Of a stretch of 56,946 nt of DNA, positions 19,950 through 54,639 are shown in pieces. How positions within the stretch are numbered: the stretch's first letter is position 1; the number at the start of each line of letters is the position of its first letter. The stretch covers positions 1 through 56,946 of the forward strand of contig CAJJCB010000011.1 of assembly GCA_905182565.1 (NCBI GenBank), in the 5' to 3' direction. The translations under genes were made by a program, and so were the position numbers. The DNA comes from Acidimicrobiaceae bacterium (lineage in GTDB: Bacteria > Actinomycetota > Acidimicrobiia > Acidimicrobiales > Poriferisodalaceae). The notes beneath the pieces were generated by a model. That model did no database searches. It was not told the origin of the DNA and saw only the letters and a list, made by a program, of their open reading frames with translations.

Positions 19950-20561
19950 CTATGCGACAAGAGTGCGGAACATAACGCGAGAGACCAGCTGGTTACCGTA
20001 CTTGGCCATGTTTGCTTGCATCGTCGGATCGGAAAACATTTTTGCGCTGTTCTCCATTAAACCGTCGAGGGATTCACAGTAGGTACCTGCAGTCCACAAA
20101 CCCGTCCGATCTCCGCCCGCTACGATCATGCCTTGACGAATGCCGTTAACACCGTTGCCGCTCATCAGAGACCAGCCATGGTCTGCCATTTCTTGTTGTT
20201 CTGCCAGAGGCGCTACTTGTCCCGACATTGTCAGCATCGAACCGAATGGCCCTTCGGGTGTTCCTCGTTCGCTGGACACAGCTATTAGCGACCGGCCAAT
20301 AATTTGAACACCATTGTTAGCCATAGATTCAGCAATCTTAGGATTCGAATTGACCAAGTGACTACTCATTGCGGCGTCGATAGTGTCCCATCTGGTCATC
20401 ACTGACACGAAGCCTGCAGAATCACCGCCCATTACCACTTGACGCATCGAAGCTTGCTGCGCTCCATTGGCTAAGTACTCTGCTTGAGCGAATTCTTTAA
20501 AGTCTTTCGCCAGGCCCTCAACATTTGTTGCTTTTATTTGGACGCTTGTCATGTAACTCAT
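19950..20561 (-). CDS. 203-aa two-repeat protein of unknown function (copy 2)
   Basis: Same length as the gene at 2287-2898 and about 70% identical by hand count, with the C-terminal third nearly identical (from Trp-Ser-Leu-Met-Ser-Gly-Asn-Gly to the shared end Arg-Thr-Leu-Val-Ala). The start is ATG 20561, preceded by GAAGGGG. The two internal halves are most alike around Arg-Gln and Gly-Gly-Asp and at the Met-Ala, Gln and Arg positions of the last helix. It is soluble and has its own terminator. The high conservation of the second half suggests it holds the functional or interface residues. Function unknown. Confidence 0.8.
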   Translation of the reverse strand: MSYMTSVQIKATNVEGLAKDFKEFAQAEYLANGAQQASMRQVVMGGDSAGFVSVMTRWDTIDAAMSSHLVNSNPKIAESMANNGVQIIGRSLIAVSSERGTPEGPFGSMLTMSGQVAPLAEQQEMADHGWSLMSGNGVNGIRQGMIVAGGDRTGLWTAGTYCESLDGLMENSAKMFSDPTMQANMAKYGNQLVSRVMFRTLVA

Positions 20562-21199: not shown

Positions 21200-21565
21200 T
21201 CAAGCGAAGATAAGGGCAACAGCTGTTAGCACCAACACGCTTATCGCAGGCATTGCCTTTTTCGGACGGTCGCCTACGCGCACATGCATGCCAATTGCAC
21301 CAATCATAATGAGTGCAAGACCGGCTGCCGCTGGTCGCGTCAGGGCATCAACCCAGATGCCAACTATCAACAACAACGAGAGAGCGACTTTGACTGCGCC
21401 AACGAGGTAAACAGCCTTTGCGGGAAAACCGTATGCGGTGAACTCTTCGACCATGTTTTTCGAATCGCCAGCTCGGTATTCCGTTTCCTTATTGAATCTC
21501 AGAATCCAGACGTTGAGAATCCAAAGCGCTGCAGCAATTTGAGCGATGCCACCGACTATTTCCAT
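21200..21565 (-). CDS. DoxX-like membrane protein
   Basis: 121 aa with four membrane segments in the DoxX layout: an N-terminal helix, an Asn-Met-Val-Glu-Glu-Phe-Thr-Ala-Tyr-Gly-Phe-Pro loop before helix two, a Gly-Ile-Trp-Val-Asp turn, and an Ile-Gly-Ala-Ile-Gly-Met-His-Val-Arg-Val-Gly-Asp segment between helices three and four, all typical of the DoxX_2-type group. The role of these small proteins is poorly known; they are often linked to redox stress. It follows the selenoprotein-like gene on the same strand after 178 nt. Confidence 0.78.
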   Translation of the reverse strand: MEIVGGIAQIAAALWILNVWILRFNKETEYRAGDSKNMVEEFTAYGFPAKAVYLVGAVKVALSLLLIVGIWVDALTRPAAAGLALIMIGAIGMHVRVGDRPKKAMPAISVLVLTAVALIFA

Positions 21566-21743
21566 GTTATGCCTTCTTCGTCTAAGTTCTAGCCAAAAAA
21601 AAATTGATTACGGGCCGTGATAGAGGCTAGTCGCAACGACATCAAATTAGGACAGAGCTGTTCGTCAGCACTTTCTCTTTCTTTGCTAAGTAGAGTTGCT
21701 ATCAATCGTGCTGGTGTAAATTTCGGCCAAATGCGACGGTTCG

Positions 21744-22862
21744 TTAGGCCCGCTCTGACGCAAAATCTCCGAGACCCATCGAGCTGGAAAGTTCCGACAT
21801 CGATTCAAGGCGGTCTGCCGGATGGCGAGTTCCGGTCCCATCGGCAATCCTGGTCATCATCTCAAAGTTGGCGACAACCGCAGCAGCATCCAACATGGTC
21901 GCTTCATCTGTGGCTTCGACTAGAGCTGACCGGGCCGATGGCAACGACGCTAAATCGTTAACGGACGCGTCTACAAGCGCAGCTAACTCGGGTGCGTGTT
22001 GGATGGCGCCACTTTCTTGCAGGTCTCCTCGAACCACATCTAAATCAAGTTCCAGGTCGTTTGCGGTACTGCTCGCACGGAGCATCATTGAGTGAGCCGC
22101 AGTTCAGTAAAAACATTCCCTATGTGCTGACAGTCTTCCGGCGACGAGTTCAATTTGCCGACGAGACAATGTGCCCCGGGTCCAGTTCAAGTCAACCATT
22201 TCCCGCATCGGAATGTACTGCGCGTCGCCGAGTGTAAACAGGGTATCCATCGCCGCTGGGACTGAACTGAGTGCTCGGATGACTGGCGCTAACGCAGGAA
22301 GCCCAGCATAAAAAGGTGCGAGTTCTGGTGTGCTGTCTTCAAGATGCACTACAGGCACCCAATGATGTTTTGCCGGTTTAGAAGGTTGAGTTTGGCGCGT
22401 TGGGTGGCCTTGAAGAGGCTCAGGGAAATCGGGACTATCGATTCCAGCCAACTGAGCGAAACGAAGTACTGATGCGACGCTGATTGTGACTTCGATTATT
22501 TCCACCCACTGCTGAGGGGTTACCCCAGTAGCGTCGCGCATTTTCTGATACCAACCTTCAGTCAGAGTTCCTGCGTGCACCGCTAGGCGATAGACAGCGT
22601 CTTGTAGCTCTGAACTGATTACAGAGTCGTTGGGTAGACGCCCACTCTTCGAAGCGCTGTCCCAAGGTGGGACTGGGTCAAAGTCACCTAAGGCCACCCG
22701 AACGACTTCCGCCACAGCGAGGCGTTCGGAACCGTTCCACCATGTTCCTGGCGCAGCGAGCTTTTCCCAAACATGGGCGTGAGCTGCTGTTAGATCAGAG
22801 CGAATATGCAGATCTGTTGCTTCATGTGATGACTCGATAAGGGATGTGGGAGTTTTTGTCAT
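21744..22862 (-). CDS. Putative selenoprotein: AhpD/carboxymuconolactone-decarboxylase-like, CxxU (locus 1)
   Basis: The frame from ATG 22862 meets TGA at 22106-22104, in the context Glu-Cys-Phe-Tyr-UGA-Thr-Ala-Ala-His, then runs on in frame to 21744: 372 codons with residue 253 as proposed selenocysteine. In AhpD/CMD proteins this spot is the second Cys of Cys-x-x-Cys-x-x-x-His, and a Glu lies 12 residues before the first Cys as expected. The part after UGA ends in the usual CMD helix (Met-Met-Thr-Arg-Ile-Ala-Asp-Gly-Thr-Gly), so it belongs to the same domain. The N-terminal part has Gly-Thr-Trp-Trp-Asn-Gly-Ser-Glu-Arg, shared with locus 2. Likely a thiol/selenol peroxidase-type enzyme; substrate unknown. 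Its ATG overlaps the upstream gene's stop. A plain stop at UGA would cut the protein inside its active site. Confidence 0.75.
22070..22084 (-). promoter_or_regulatory. Putative bacterial SECIS stem-loop, locus 1
   Basis: On the minus strand TGCTC (22084-22080), loop CGTGC (22079-22075) and GAGCA (22074-22070) form a perfect 5-bp hairpin. The loop begins 24 nt after the UGA, within the range known for bacterial SECIS elements, and contains G and U. Locus 2 has the same loop at the same distance. Confidence 0.6.
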
Positions 22863-23080
22863 AATGCCCTACTAACTAGATAAGACCTTTGATTGGCACC
22901 GTAGCTGTTGCCGGCGGCGTCTCCATTGGCTTCAGCTATTTCCCAGACCTCGTTAGCCGTCAGTTCATCGCCCGCATCGTTAGCTTCTGGGAGCATTCTG
23001 AGAATGGAACTCACCGACTCACCGAGCAGGCACATCTCAACTATCTCGCCGTTAACTTTTTCGCTCACATAAGTACTCAT
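22859..23080 (-). CDS. 73-aa protein upstream of selenoprotein locus 1
   Basis: ATG 23080 is preceded by a strong AAAGGAGG. The acidic 73-aa product has no signal or membrane segment and matches no family I recognise; Ser-Val-Ser-Ser-Ile-Leu-Arg-Met-Leu-Pro and Asn-Glu-Val-Trp-Glu-Ile-Ala look helical. Its stop overlaps the start of the selenoprotein-like gene (ATGA at 22862-22859), so the two are translationally coupled and may work together. Confidence 0.65.
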   Translation of the reverse strand: MSTYVSEKVNGEIVEMCLLGESVSSILRMLPEANDAGDELTANEVWEIAEANGDAAGNSYGANQRSYLVSRAL

Positions 23081-23741: not shown

Positions 23742-24932
23742 ATGACTGCTCTCAAAGGATTACGCGTCCTTGATATGACTCAATATGAGGCTGGACCTTC
23801 GTGTACTCAGGCACTCGCTTGGTTCGGCGCGGACGTCGTCAAGGTAGAGCCACCCGGGCGGGGTGACCCAGGTCGAGGAGGAGACAGCATTCCCCAAAAC
23901 TATTTTTTGCAGTGGAACAGCAATAAGCGGTCCGTTGCTATCGACCTTACCAGCGCGGAAGGGAGGCAACTTCTTCTCCAAATGGCAGCACACTACGATG
24001 TCTTCGTAGAAAATTATGGCCCTGGAGTCGTTGATCGACTTGACCTTGGATATGACGTCCTCCGCGAGGTCAACCCAGCGATTATTTATGCGTCGGTTAA
24101 AGGATTCGGCTCGACGGGTCCCTACTCTGATCGCAAATGTTTTGACGGAGTGGCTCAAGCAATGTCTGGAGCTTTGTCGATAACCGGAAGAGCTGACGAT
24201 GGACCCCTTTTACCGGGAACTACGACGGGAGATTCAGGCACAGGGGTGCAACTGGGAATGGCGATTCTCGCTGCCTACATTCAGAGACTCCGAACCGGAG
24301 ATGGACAGTACGTGGAGATCGCGATGCAAGAAGCGATGACGTACTACATGCGCACTCGAATGGCGATGGCGCCTGGCTGGAATGATGAACCTTTAGCTCG
24401 AACAGGAAATGGGTCTCGCGCAGTAAACAACTTGTATCCATGTAAAGGCGACGGAGCGAATGATTACGTGATGATCATGGCGATTACACCAAAGATGTGG
24501 ATCAATCTTTGTTCTGTAATGGGAAAACCCGAACTTGTTAACGACCCTCGGTTCGCCCACGGTCGAGACCGACTCAATAATGATGATGCACTAAGAAATG
24601 AAATTTCTTCGTGGACGGAACATCTAACAAAGCATCAAGTCGCTGAGTTGCTCGCCGCTGAAGGTGTGCCAGGGGGGCCGGTTCTCGACACCAGCGAGCT
24701 CTTAAACGACACACATTTACAAGCACGCGGATTCATAACCACAATCGATCATCCTGATCGCGGTGAGGTTCCTATTTTGGGGTGGGCGCCTCGATTGTCA
24801 GCTAGCTCAGTAGACCTGGTGGCAGCTCCCGGTTTAGGTGAACACACCGTAGAAGTGCTGACACAGGATCTCCAACTTCCAGTGGCGACAATTCAGGGTC
24901 TAATAGCGAAGTCGGTTATTGGAGGGTCCTGA
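23742..24932 (+). CDS. CaiB/BaiF family III CoA-transferase
   Basis: About 396 aa from ATG 23742, which follows GAAGAG; frames to 23739 and 23712 are also open. Typical features of formyl-CoA/carnitine-CoA transferases: Leu-Lys-Gly-Leu-Arg-Val-Leu-Asp at the start, Val-Val-Lys-Val-Glu-Pro-Pro, Asn-Lys-Arg-Ser-Val-Ala-Ile-Asp, and the catalytic Asp in Lys-Cys-Phe-Asp-Gly-Val-Ala-Gln-Ala (Asp145 counted from 23712). It moves CoA between carboxylic acids. Its TGA overlaps the ATG of a decayed hydrolase gene (TGATG), so that pair was once coupled. Confidence 0.88.
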   Translation: MTALKGLRVLDMTQYEAGPSCTQALAWFGADVVKVEPPGRGDPGRGGDSIPQNYFLQWNSNKRSVAIDLTSAEGRQLLLQMAAHYDVFVENYGPGVVDRLDLGYDVLREVNPAIIYASVKGFGSTGPYSDRKCFDGVAQAMSGALSITGRADDGPLLPGTTTGDSGTGVQLGMAILAAYIQRLRTGDGQYVEIAMQEAMTYYMRTRMAMAPGWNDEPLARTGNGSRAVNNLYPCKGDGANDYVMIMAITPKMWINLCSVMGKPELVNDPRFAHGRDRLNNDDALRNEISSWTEHLTKHQVAELLAAEGVPGGPVLDTSELLNDTHLQARGFITTIDHPDRGEVPILGWAPRLSASSVDLVAAPGLGEHTVEVLTQDLQLPVATIQGLIAKSVIGGS

Positions 24933-25346
24933 TGGAGCCCCGAACGTCGGGCACAGCTCGAAATGGTGACGTGGAGCTTTACTTCGATGCGTATGGCGAT
25001 AGCTCGAACCCTCCCGTTCTGTTCGTCAACGGGCTGGGTAGCCAATCGATTAACTTTGTTCCCGCATGGGTTCATGGATTTAACCGTGCTGGATTTTGTT
25101 TCATTCGTATGGACAACCGTGACGTCGGACTGTCATCGAAAACACCGGGACAGCCCCCCAAGTATGGATCAAGTCCTTGAACAATTGACGCTAGAACATT
25201 CCCTTGGAGAACTTTTGACGCCATACAACTTGTCTGACATGGCTATGGACTGCCTCGCAGTTTTAGATGCATTGGAGATAGAGCAAGCCTAGGTGATTGC
25301 TATGCGGCGTTGCCAAGAATGGGCAGCTGAGCTTAGACATGAGTAG
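24932..25346 (+). pseudogene. Decayed alpha/beta hydrolase
   Basis: ATG 24932 after GGAGGG opens a clear hydrolase N-terminus (Phe-Val-Asn-Gly-Leu-Gly-Ser-Gln, then Arg-Met-Asp-Asn-Arg-Asp-Val-Gly-Leu-Ser), but this frame stops at 25180. The family's next block (Tyr-Asn-Leu-Ser-Asp-Met-Ala-Met-Asp-Cys-Leu-Ala-Val-Leu-Asp-Ala-Leu) continues in the +1 frame up to a TAG at about 25290, just where the nucleophile elbow should begin. A short Gln-Glu-Trp-Ala-Ala-Glu remnant follows. At least one frameshift, one stop and a deletion make it non-functional. Confidence 0.75.
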
Positions 25347-25644
25347 CGACGAGTTGGACGGGTTTGACCGTGAGGAGTTCGAGGACGGCTTTGGGTCCTT
25401 GGAGCGCAGTTTGAAGTTCGTTGTTTGGGTGCAACAAATGATGCCGATTCGCCCCAAGGACGACGTGGAGATGCTGTCTAACGTTTTGGCTGGTCGAGCT
25501 GTTGTGAAGTTGTTGGGGAAGGGCTTGTTTGGTACTGATCACCAACACGTGGCTGATCGGTTGCTGAAAGAATTGGAAGCACAGGTGAGTTGCGCACATG
25601 AGAAAAACGATTCGGAGCTCCCTAAATCTGGCGTTTGGTTATAG
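25339..25644 (+). CDS. Hypothetical protein (101 aa)
   Basis: ATG 25339 starts a charged, soluble 101-aa chain (Asp-Arg-Glu-Glu-Phe-Glu-Asp-Gly-Phe-Gly, then Gln-Gln-Met-Met-Pro-Ile-Arg-Pro, then Leu-Leu-Gly-Lys-Gly-Leu-Phe-Gly). The frame is open upstream to 25297. No family recognised. It begins inside the remains of the hydrolase pseudogene and local base use is G-rich compared with its surroundings, so it might be part of a replaced or imported segment. No clear ribosome site. Confidence 0.45.
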   Translation: MSSDELDGFDREEFEDGFGSLERSLKFVVWVQQMMPIRPKDDVEMLSNVLAGRAVVKLLGKGLFGTDHQHVADRLLKELEAQVSCAHEKNDSELPKSGVWL

Positions 25645-25786: not shown

Positions 25787-26881
25787 ATGCATTCCATCTA
25801 TGAAATAGTTTCTCCTGGCATCGATTCCCGCTTTGGAATTGCTCATGCCGAAGTTTGGCAACAACTTGGTGCTTGCGGCACATGGTGGACCGGGAATGAG
25901 CGGATCGAGGTAATGAAGGAGGCAAGAGCTGCTCATAGCTGCGAGTTGTGCGCACAACGTAAACAAGACTTAACTCCTACCGCGGCGAGTGGATCTCATA
26001 GTGCAGTCTCTGATTTGCCCGAAGAGGCGGTTGATTTAATCCACCGAGTAGTTACTGATCCAGGTCGACTTACACGCAACTGGGCTGAAGAAATAATGAA
26101 CTCTATTGGCGAGGAGCATTACGTAGAGCTGGTAACCGTTATCTGCACGCAGAACGTCATAGAAGAGTTCACTGTTGCGCTGGGTGTCCCACTGCCAAAT
26201 TTTCCAGATGCCGGCGAAGGCACCCCAAGGAGAACCCGCCCAGATGGTGTTGGCGATGTTGGGGCCTGGGTGAGTCAATCGATTGATAAGCCCCTCGCTA
26301 ATGTGTCTCGATGCGTTTCGTTGGTTCCTGATTCTGCTCAGCATTGGAGACGAATAGTCGATGAGCATTATAGTCATGGTCGTGAATTTGGTGATCTTGT
26401 TTGGGAGCGTCCGCTTTCACGGCCACAAGTTGAGTTGATTGCGTCGGTCGTATCTTCGTTGAATGAGTGCTTTTACTGAACTGCTGCTCATGTAGCGTTG
26501 CTCCGTGCGAGTGGCGAAGCCTTAGAATCTGAAGTTGATATTCACACGATTGCGCATGGGGCTTATGTCGAGTTTGGGGAGGAACTAGTTTCGTTTGCGA
26601 CGCATGTCCTCGAACGTAATCCTGGTTTAGCTGAAAGCCGAAATATTTTGCAGGAGTTGGTAGGTGATGCGGGGCTAGTTGAGGCTGCCGCCACGGTCGC
26701 TGCGTTTCAAGGTTTGAATCGGATAGCTGACGCTACTGGTATACAGCTCGATGATGGTTTGAATTCTGAAAGTGCCGATTTTCGTTCGCTTTTAGGGCTC
26801 GAGAAATTTAGCGGCGCAGACAGCACGAAGAAAACTGAGACCACAGCGCGTAGCGAGTCAGTTATGGGTATTTTTCGTTGA
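25787..26881 (+). CDS. Putative selenoprotein: AhpD/carboxymuconolactone-decarboxylase-like, CxxU (locus 2)
   Basis: From ATG 25787 the frame meets TGA at 26477-26479 in Glu-Cys-Phe-Tyr-UGA-Thr-Ala-Ala-His and continues in the same frame to 26881: 364 codons with residue 231 as proposed selenocysteine. It shares with locus 1 the N-terminal Val-Trp-x-x-Leu, Gly-Thr-Trp-Trp-x-Gly-x-Glu-Arg and the Arg-x-Gln-(Ile/Val)-Glu-Leu helix before the redox motif. After UGA the CMD helices end in Gly-Leu-Asn-Arg-Ile-Ala-Asp-Ala-Thr-Gly, the normal family ending. There is no start codon with a ribosome site after the UGA that would make the second part an independent gene. Likely a selenol-based peroxidase or thiol reductase. 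Confidence 0.77.
26496..26516 (+). promoter_or_regulatory. Putative bacterial SECIS stem-loop, locus 2
   Basis: CGTTGCTC (26496-26503) pairs with GAGTGGCG (26509-26516) in an 8-bp stem with three G-U pairs, loop CGTGC (26504-26508). The loop starts 24 nt after the UGA. Loop, closing pairs and distance equal those of locus 1, while the lower stem bases differ but still pair. Confidence 0.6.
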
Positions 26882-53709: not shown

Positions 53710-54639
53710 TCAGCCTGTTCTATCCAACAAGGACAGAATTACCTCTACACAGCTACCGGGCTGTTGCTCCTGAATAAAGTGCCCCGCATTCTCAATGATG
53801 GTGTGTGGCTGATTTTTTGCGCCTGCCACTCTTCCAGACAAAAGGCCCTGCATAGAACCAGTTACATCATCATCAGCTCCAAATGCAGTAGTCAAAGGCA
53901 CTTGACACTCAGCTAGCAGAGACCAAGTCTCCCAACATATCGGCGCACTCGGATGAGTAGCTGAAGTCGGAACGATGAGCGGGAACTGGCGCGCCCCAGC
54001 GGCATAAACCTCCGCAGGAAATGGAGCGTCATAGGCCTTTCGTTCCTCAGTCGAGAGGTCACATGCCATTCCTTCGATTGGAGTGGACTCTCCGGCTAAG
54101 CAAGCTGAAGCTAGAAACGGATTGAGGTCTTGGGAATACTGACGCCATCGAGCGAAAGCGTCTTCACTAGTCCTCAAAAAATCTTTTCCGAGGGGTACTC
54201 CAGTGTTAGAAGCCACAACTCCCCTATATTTTTCTGCATTTCGGGCCATATGGCTAAGCCCGAGCAAACCACCCCAATCCTGGCAGAACATGGTGAGTGG
54301 TCCAAGATCAGTCGAGTCACTAATCGCGTCGATGCTTTCAGTTAGCCATCGGAGATGGCGCCCGTAGGTATAGTCATCTCTCAGAGTCGGTTTGTCAGAG
54401 CGCCCGAAACCGACTAAATCTGGGGCGATTACACGACAACCCGAGGCAACAAGTATTGGAATCATTTTCCGGTATAGATAAGCCCAAGTAGGCTCGCCAT
54501 GGAGCAGGAGAACCGTCGGACCTGAGCCTTCATCAACGTAGTGAACACGAAGCGAGTCGCTTATCTCCACGTACTTCGGTTCGAAAGGCCAGTCAGTCAG
54601 GTCATCAAAGCGACTTTCCGGTGTTCTCAAAGATTCCAT
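53710..54639 (-). CDS. Haloalkane dehalogenase-like hydrolase
   Basis: 309 aa, close in length and motif spacing to haloalkane dehalogenases. Oxyanion segment His-Gly-Glu-Pro-Thr-Trp at 47-52, nucleophile Asp121 in Cys-Gln-Asp-Trp-Gly-Gly with the halide-binding Trp just after it, acid Asp in Gly-Ala-Asp-Asp-Asp, and His287 in Asn-Ala-Gly-His-Phe. It would replace a halide by hydroxyl, or hydrolyse a related ester or epoxide. It lies 55 nt downstream of an epoxide-hydrolase-like gene on the same strand, so a shared transcript is likely. Confidence 0.85.
   Translation of the reverse strand: MESLRTPESRFDDLTDWPFEPKYVEISDSLRVHYVDEGSGPTVLLLHGEPTWAYLYRKMIPILVASGCRVIAPDLVGFGRSDKPTLRDDYTYGRHLRWLTESIDAISDSTDLGPLTMFCQDWGGLLGLSHMARNAEKYRGVVASNTGVPLGKDFLRTSEDAFARWRQYSQDLNPFLASACLAGESTPIEGMACDLSTEERKAYDAPFPAEVYAAGARQFPLIVPTSATHPSAPICWETWSLLAECQVPLTTAFGADDDVTGSMQGLLSGRVAGAKNQPHTIIENAGHFIQEQQPGSCVEVILSLLDRTG

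Follow-up and report, generated by a model that had tools for sequence, protein, structure and literature searches.

The Sargasso Sea selenoproteome published in 2005 (PMC1088965) describes, under the name "hypothetical protein 1", four sequences that have a CXXU motif and for which a bacterial SECIS element is predicted, and a 2026 selenoproteome review (PMC13188914) equates NF041238, a family of the NCBIfam collection, with this entry. In the tables of both papers, AhpD-like and CMD-domain selenoproteins are listed separately from "hypothetical protein 1". The AhpD-like 1 (COG2128) and AhpD-like 2 (pfam02627) selenoproteins given in PMC2398784 have CxxU in common with the gene described here, which we call locus 1.

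On the structural side, AhpD and the AhpD-like peroxidase-related enzymes (TIGR01926, PF02627; structures 2prr, 6k40 and 3c1l) share their fold and the motif E-x11-C-x2-[CU]-x3-H with the predicted C-terminal half of locus 1. The differences are that here the second Cys would be selenocysteine (Sec), and that an extra, degenerate copy of the domain appears to be fused on the N side. In Sestrin2, as in our model of locus 1, a single chain is made of two AhpD-fold halves, and one half is degenerate (PMC4674687, PMC11429811). However, the active site of Sestrin is found in the N half (Sesn-A), has one Cys and leaves the C half degenerate, whereas the active site of locus 1 is placed in the C half, and for this reason we do not file locus 1 as a Sestrin. 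The two are also only about 10% identical, and the Sec and the SECIS-like hairpin set locus 1 apart. The fused-AhpD analogues of C. ureicelerivorans and C. aquatica described in PMC11429811 resemble locus 1 in that their C half is active and their N half lacks Cys, and bacterial fused-AhpD proteins resembling Sestrin are already in print.

It should be said at the outset that the family itself is catalogued; what is new here is the RNA-level evidence and the predicted Sestrin-like, two-half shape. In PMC11429811 the sole occurrence of "selen" is in selenomethionine, and the word "sestrin" is absent from PMC13188914. Our search of the open-licence literature found no published link between Sestrin-like fused AhpD proteins and the NF041238 selenoprotein.

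The Gene and Its Family

The window is a stretch of 56,946 nucleotides from an Acidimicrobiaceae bacterium (contig CAJJCB010000011.1), and all coordinates below without a contig label refer to it. The features of interest are as follows.

22859 to 23080, minus strand: ORF of 73 residues directly upstream of locus 1 (ORF list)
21744 to 22862, minus strand: locus 1, putative gene of an AhpD-related selenoprotein (372 residues if the UGA is read as Sec)
22446 to 22799, minus strand: N-terminal half, residues 22–139 (model helices), predicted degenerate AhpD-fold domain without active site (AF2 model)
21786 to 22373, minus strand: C-terminal half, residues 164–359, predicted AhpD-fold domain with E238, C250, U253 and H257 (sequence and AF2 model)
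22104 to 22106, minus strand: in-frame UGA, proposed selenocysteine codon 253 (C250-F-Y-U253), a codon shared by 32 of 32 loci read
22068 to 22086, minus strand: SECIS-like hairpin of locus 1, nt 21–39 from the U of UGA, with the loop at nt 28–32 and an invariant G29 (alignment)
25787 to 26881, plus strand: locus 2, diverged paralogue with UGA at the equivalent place (NF041238, 378 bits)
26477 to 26479, plus strand: in-frame UGA, proposed Sec codon of locus 2 (readthrough translation)
26497 to 26515, plus strand: SECIS-like hairpin of locus 2 (alignment and motif scan)

Locus 1 starts with an ATG at 22862, ends with a TAA, and has one internal stop in its 372-residue frame. An earlier interpretation made from the letters of the window alone (the sequence-only reading) had placed a UGA at 22106-22104 in the frame of a CMD domain that stays open beyond it, and this is confirmed. 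The readthrough translation around the UGA is ...RECFYUTAAHS... (ECFY-U-TAAH), and the codon sits inside the AhpD motif E-x11-C-x2-U-x3-H. Under table 11 the ORF stops at 22104, and a further ORF could begin at 22088; standard ORF calling truncates a gene for which the selenoprotein reading is supported here. The stop of the upstream 73-residue ORF overlaps the start of locus 1 (ATGA), which suggests translational coupling of the two; this small ORF has no Pfam match in a search up to E 1.

Against NF041238, locus 1 scores 329.2 bits (cut-off 175) over positions 1–357 of the 357 in the profile, and it has the CFYU-T motif from which the family takes its name (AhpD_rel_CFYUT). Locus 2 matches the same profile nearly or fully at full length, and a third paralogue elsewhere in the genome (C26:37944-38975), with one UGA and the hairpin, also exceeds the cut-off, which puts all three copies of this genome above it. 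The TIGR01926 score falls below that model's own cut-off, and a Pfam scan of locus 1 up to E 1 gave no domain besides CMD. The NF041238 match, taken with the 2005 and 2026 descriptions, puts locus 1 into an already known kind: the profile match, the CFYU-T motif, and CxxU with a SECIS-like hairpin downstream are all alike (PMC1088965, PMC13188914). We have seen nothing that speaks against membership, and to what is described for the family we add the presence of three old paralogues within a single genome and the pseudodimer reading discussed below.

Among 296 genomes of the class, the protein is found in 48, with 53 matches in total. Exactly one in-frame TGA is present in 51 of these; G247 has none, with a Cys instead, and the match in G204 covers the N part only. 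The codon itself was read in 32 loci and in G247, the remaining 20 matches being judged by stop count and range, and the UGA occupies the same motif codon in 32 of the 32 loci. A search of the phylum with NF041238 gave hits in four of 396 genomes, all in the class of the window, with one TGA in each of the seven matches; the control genome of Deinobacterium chartae has a match below the cut-off. The alignment used below has 29 rows from the 32 loci, after L029 and L042 (near copies) and L039 (without the N half) were dropped.

The sequence-only reading had proposed a dN/dS comparison on the two sides of the UGA. This was run on 23 pairs of relatives that are at least 55% identical downstream of the UGA; locus 1 itself is too far from its nearest relatives among the 32 loci (41–44% identical) to be included. 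In these pairs the third codon positions vary most both before and after the UGA, and in the three closest pairs dN/dS is 0.14, 0.17 and 0.23 before it and 0.06, 0.13 and 0.29 after it. Purifying selection is similar on both sides among these relatives, and constraint is not lost past the UGA.

A Hairpin Maintained by Codon Choice

The bacterial SECIS as described in PMC1088965 is a stem-loop just 3' of the UGA with a G in its small apical loop, and the candidate hairpin fits this description in its stem, its five-base loop and its G29, present in 32 of 32 sequences. The hairpin emerged from the alignment; folds of single 66-nt sequences gave mixed long-range pairings. Starting at the UGA, 48 bases can be aligned gap-free across the 32 loci, and all 32 have the motif CUC-nGnnn-GAG at nt 25–35 (CUC at 25–27, GAG at 33–35). 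The stem of nt 24–27 with 33–36 pairs in every sequence and leaves a five-base loop, the second base of which is always G, while the helix pair 22–38 forms in 12 of the 32.

Codon 8 is Leu, written CTC in 32 of 32 loci although CTC makes up 42% of the Leu codons in these genes (log10 p -12), and codon 11 is Ser, written AGY in all 32 although AGY accounts for about 25% (log10 p -19). Codon 9 may be Arg, Ser or Gly, with G as the middle base throughout (log10 p -6), and codon 10 takes six amino acids (Ala, Trp, Glu, Leu, Ser and Val), the third base being G in every case (log10 p -10). These probabilities treat the loci as independent, and kinship makes them less extreme; the shuffles below likewise ignore kinship. 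As judged from the alignment, the hairpin is maintained at the nucleotide level by codon choice while the amino acids vary, and the codons used offer a way to recognise the SECIS hairpin of this gene.

Across the seven base pairs examined, 86.6% of cells are paired, as against 25–49% when the partner is slid by one to three columns. The covariation score was matched by none of 500 shuffles, with the +3 slide coming near the real value (0.136 vs. 0.157); the count of further pair types was matched by 14 of 500, and that of pairs changed on both sides (two) by 309 of 500. In a scan of both strands of the window, two of 2,143 TGA triplets have CTC-nGnnn-GAG at the right distance, and these are the UGAs of locus 1 and locus 2. 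Eight loci with Cys copies or Cys relatives (L051–L058) contain 12 Cys motifs between them, and none of these has the hairpin motif. Rfam gave no match on the window at gathering threshold, to which we attach no weight because, in our judgement, such a miss says little about bacterial SECIS elements.

Selenocysteine Machinery and Cysteine Homologues

The genome (2,646,701 bases in 27 contigs, 95.64% complete) has the full set of components for Sec insertion that we searched for. On contig C22 we found tRNA-Sec (65.5 bits, cut-off 47), SelA (392.5, cut-off 267.9) and SelB (270.9, cut-off 242.25), and on contig C12 SelD (21547-22488; 348.5, cut-off 125). The SelD gene has one in-frame TGA inside it, which makes it probably a selenoprotein itself. 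Across the class, SelA (E 1e-40) is present in 201 of 296 genomes, and in 47 of the 48 that carry the selenoprotein, the lists being compared by eye (Fisher p 4e-8, uncorrected for kinship). The exception, G234, which is about 90% complete, has the selenoprotein and no SelA match, and counts against the Sec reading. In 14 control genomes the tRNA-Sec model passes its cut-off in five, as against one for SelA, and the tRNA model alone is therefore not decisive.

In the copies without UGA, the place of Sec is taken by Cys, encoded by TGT in L051 and by TGC in L052, L053 and L058. The nearest four Cys copies are divided evenly: two, L051 from Marinomonas and L052 from Bermanella, come from genomes where SelA gave no match at E 1e-20 (G296 and G297, of no stated completeness), and two from genomes with a SelA match (G247 and G298, the latter the genome of L053). 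The joint presence of a Cys copy and SelA in these last two counts against the Sec reading. A tree of 29 Sec and three Cys proteins, from which L052 was excluded because its frame is broken upstream, requires three changes between Sec and Cys. The tree has long branches (3.58 for L053), and at one point two long rows are joined to each other; we therefore claim no direction for these changes.

Locus 2 and the Surroundings

The sequence-only reading had pointed to a diverged homologue with UGA at the same codon, and this is borne out by locus 2, whose translation at the UGA is ...NECFYUTAAHV... and which is identical to locus 1 in 115 of 372 aligned columns (31%), the alignment running across the UGA. 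It was wrong in calling the two copies unlinked: their start codons are 2,924 bp apart. The argument that two unlinked copies speak against a random nonsense mutation or a sequencing error fails as it was written, since the loci are neighbours, and its conclusion holds through the conservation of the UGA across genomes, which takes the argument's place. In the tree, locus 1 groups with L023–L025, locus 2 with L035, L036 and the Marinomonas protein L051, and the third copy (L010/L059) with L022. Because each clusters with genes of other genomes, locus 1 and locus 2 are old paralogues.

The N half of locus 2 has the motif C-E-L-C-x2-R, close to the C-E-F-C-x2-R of the Marinomonas Cys homologue, and in both proteins this C-E-[LF]-C falls at the position matching CFYU of the C half, with the register judged by eye. 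Such a CxxC in the N half is rare, occurring in one of 29 alignment rows and in L051.

The DNA between the two loci includes a CoA-transferase gene and hydrolase fragments. The latter, at 24932-25644 between the CoA-transferase gene and locus 2, look like an alpha/beta hydrolase split into ORFs in different frames; the first piece has a weak Abhydrolase_1 match and 25297-25644 has none, and the split appears to be decay or an assembly error. Elsewhere in the window, two ORFs on opposite strands (2194-2898 and 19950-20561) are alike in their C-terminal sequences by eye, one of them with a weak DUF6854 match below cut-off. We compared positions 12001-37000 of the window with nine other stretches (that of L067 being 5,989 bases), using crude ORF calling. 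Besides pieces of the selenoprotein, one small group recurs in three stretches, and by position we read its members as ORFs antisense to the selenoprotein gene, and a GNAT-like pair and AMP-ligase-like ORFs occur in two. A candidate partner gene was sought across these compared neighbourhoods and none was found.

Two Predicted Halves with One Active Site

The AF2 model of locus 1, built from 29 aligned sequences with Sec modelled as Cys, has a mean pLDDT of 90.5 and a pTM of 0.90. Neither this model nor a separate model of the N half of locus 2 had a Foldseek match in the PDB at E 0.001 or better, and the top-ranked chains were realigned to the models for Z scores. The best whole-chain match of locus 1 is human Sestrin2 (Z 17.0, 239 residues, rmsd 3.5, 10% identity), with an alignment that spans model residues 17–346. 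AhpD enzymes follow on the C half, with Z 12.2–13.1 over 169–176 residues for 2prr, 6k40 and 3c1l (6k40: Z 13.1, 176 residues, rmsd 3.1), and the first chain outside the Sestrin and AhpD families has Z 4.4. For the N half of locus 2 (pLDDT 87.2), the best 13 chains all belong to the AhpD family (Z 8.8 to 6.3), the next scores 4.7, and a further CMD-family chain, 1vke, is at Z 2.0. For a helical domain such Z values alone are no proof, and the weight of the N-half comparison lies in the best 13 all being of one family. A comparison of the N-half and C-half profiles with hhalign was weak (probability 15–22%, E 0.001–0.002, 41–43 columns), and the duplication is therefore argued from the structure models. 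On these models, the chain very probably consists of two fused AhpD-fold halves that form an intramolecular pseudodimer, with the N half degenerate.

In the C half, all 29 alignment rows have E238, C250, U253 and H257, these rows having been selected by that very motif. The catalytic residues given for YP_296737.1 (PMC4674687), namely Glu74, Cys86, Tyr88, Cys89 and His93, have a spacing identical to that of locus 1.

Weighing the Explanations

If the UGA were a true stop, locus 1 would be a pseudogene or would code for a truncated protein of 252 residues, followed by debris or a separate gene, much as the table 11 ORFs ending at 22104 and possibly restarting at 22088 would have it. It is hard to see how such a gene would keep a single TGA in 51 of 53 matches, selection after the UGA that resembles that before it in pairs of relatives, and a hairpin motif at 32 of 32 UGA copies and at none of the 12 Cys motifs; termination would also delete the second catalytic residue and the motif His. 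We give this explanation very little credence, and about as little to one in which the UGA is read as some other residue through an altered genetic code or near-cognate suppression. The frame alone would look the same whatever residue was inserted, but Sec tRNA, SelA, SelB and SelD are all in the genome, a SECIS-type hairpin follows just downstream, and the homologous position is Cys in the UGA-less copies read. Moreover, UGA apparently terminates locus 2 itself (26879-26881) and a number of the relatives, and so does not appear to be globally reassigned. The Sec machinery, the shared UGA codon, the hairpin, the two-sided selection and the NF041238 match together support the selenoprotein readthrough that the sequence-only reading had put forward, and we are highly confident that locus 1 is a selenoprotein of NF041238 in which the UGA at 22106-22104 is decoded as Sec.

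A different question is what such a selenoprotein would do. By analogy with AhpD, a peroxidase or a disulfide reductase seems the likeliest reaction type, an assignment we favour with some caution. Sec could also serve in reductive dehalogenation or in some other thiol-transfer enzyme: the relatives with a solved AhpD-fold structure include the debrominase Bmp8 (Z 12.6, 177 residues, rmsd 2.9), and the window has a ring-hydroxylating beta subunit and a haloalkane dehalogenase gene at 53710-54639 (NF002043, 338.3 bits, cut-off 265). Bmp8, however, is level with plain AhpD enzymes, the haloalkane dehalogenase gene is 31 kb off, and such a gene is common to none of the compared neighbourhoods, which leaves this an unlikely alternative to a peroxidase or disulfide reductase.

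Proposed Mechanism and Implications

From the comparative evidence, SelB and Sec-tRNA would decode the UGA at 22106-22104 as Sec, aided by the hairpin downstream. In the resulting protein, as sequence and model suggest, the N half would have lost its active site and the C half would hold Glu238, Cys250, Sec253 and His257 in AhpD-like spacing. The chemistry can be sketched from AhpD: the selenolate of U253, activated by a Glu/His relay, would attack a hydroperoxide or a disulfide, Cys250 would resolve it as a selenenylsulfide, and a dithiol donor would then re-reduce the selenenylsulfide.

We would like to end with a more speculative proposal, which we put forward only tentatively. NF041238 may comprise selenium-dependent enzymes built like Sestrin, a fused AhpD pseudodimer whose active half acquired Sec while its partner half became available for regulation or for binding substrate. 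The C-E-[LF]-C that locus 2 and the Marinomonas Cys homologue have in their N halves could then be a relic, or a working relay, of the second active site, and the family might parallel Sestrin in prokaryotes, perhaps with bulky lipid hydroperoxides or halogenated aromatics as substrates. The predicted fused-AhpD architecture would tie a selenoprotein listed as "hypothetical" in 2005 to the Sestrin design, and this link offers testable enzymology, with bulky hydroperoxides, as for Sestrin2, as the substrates to try.
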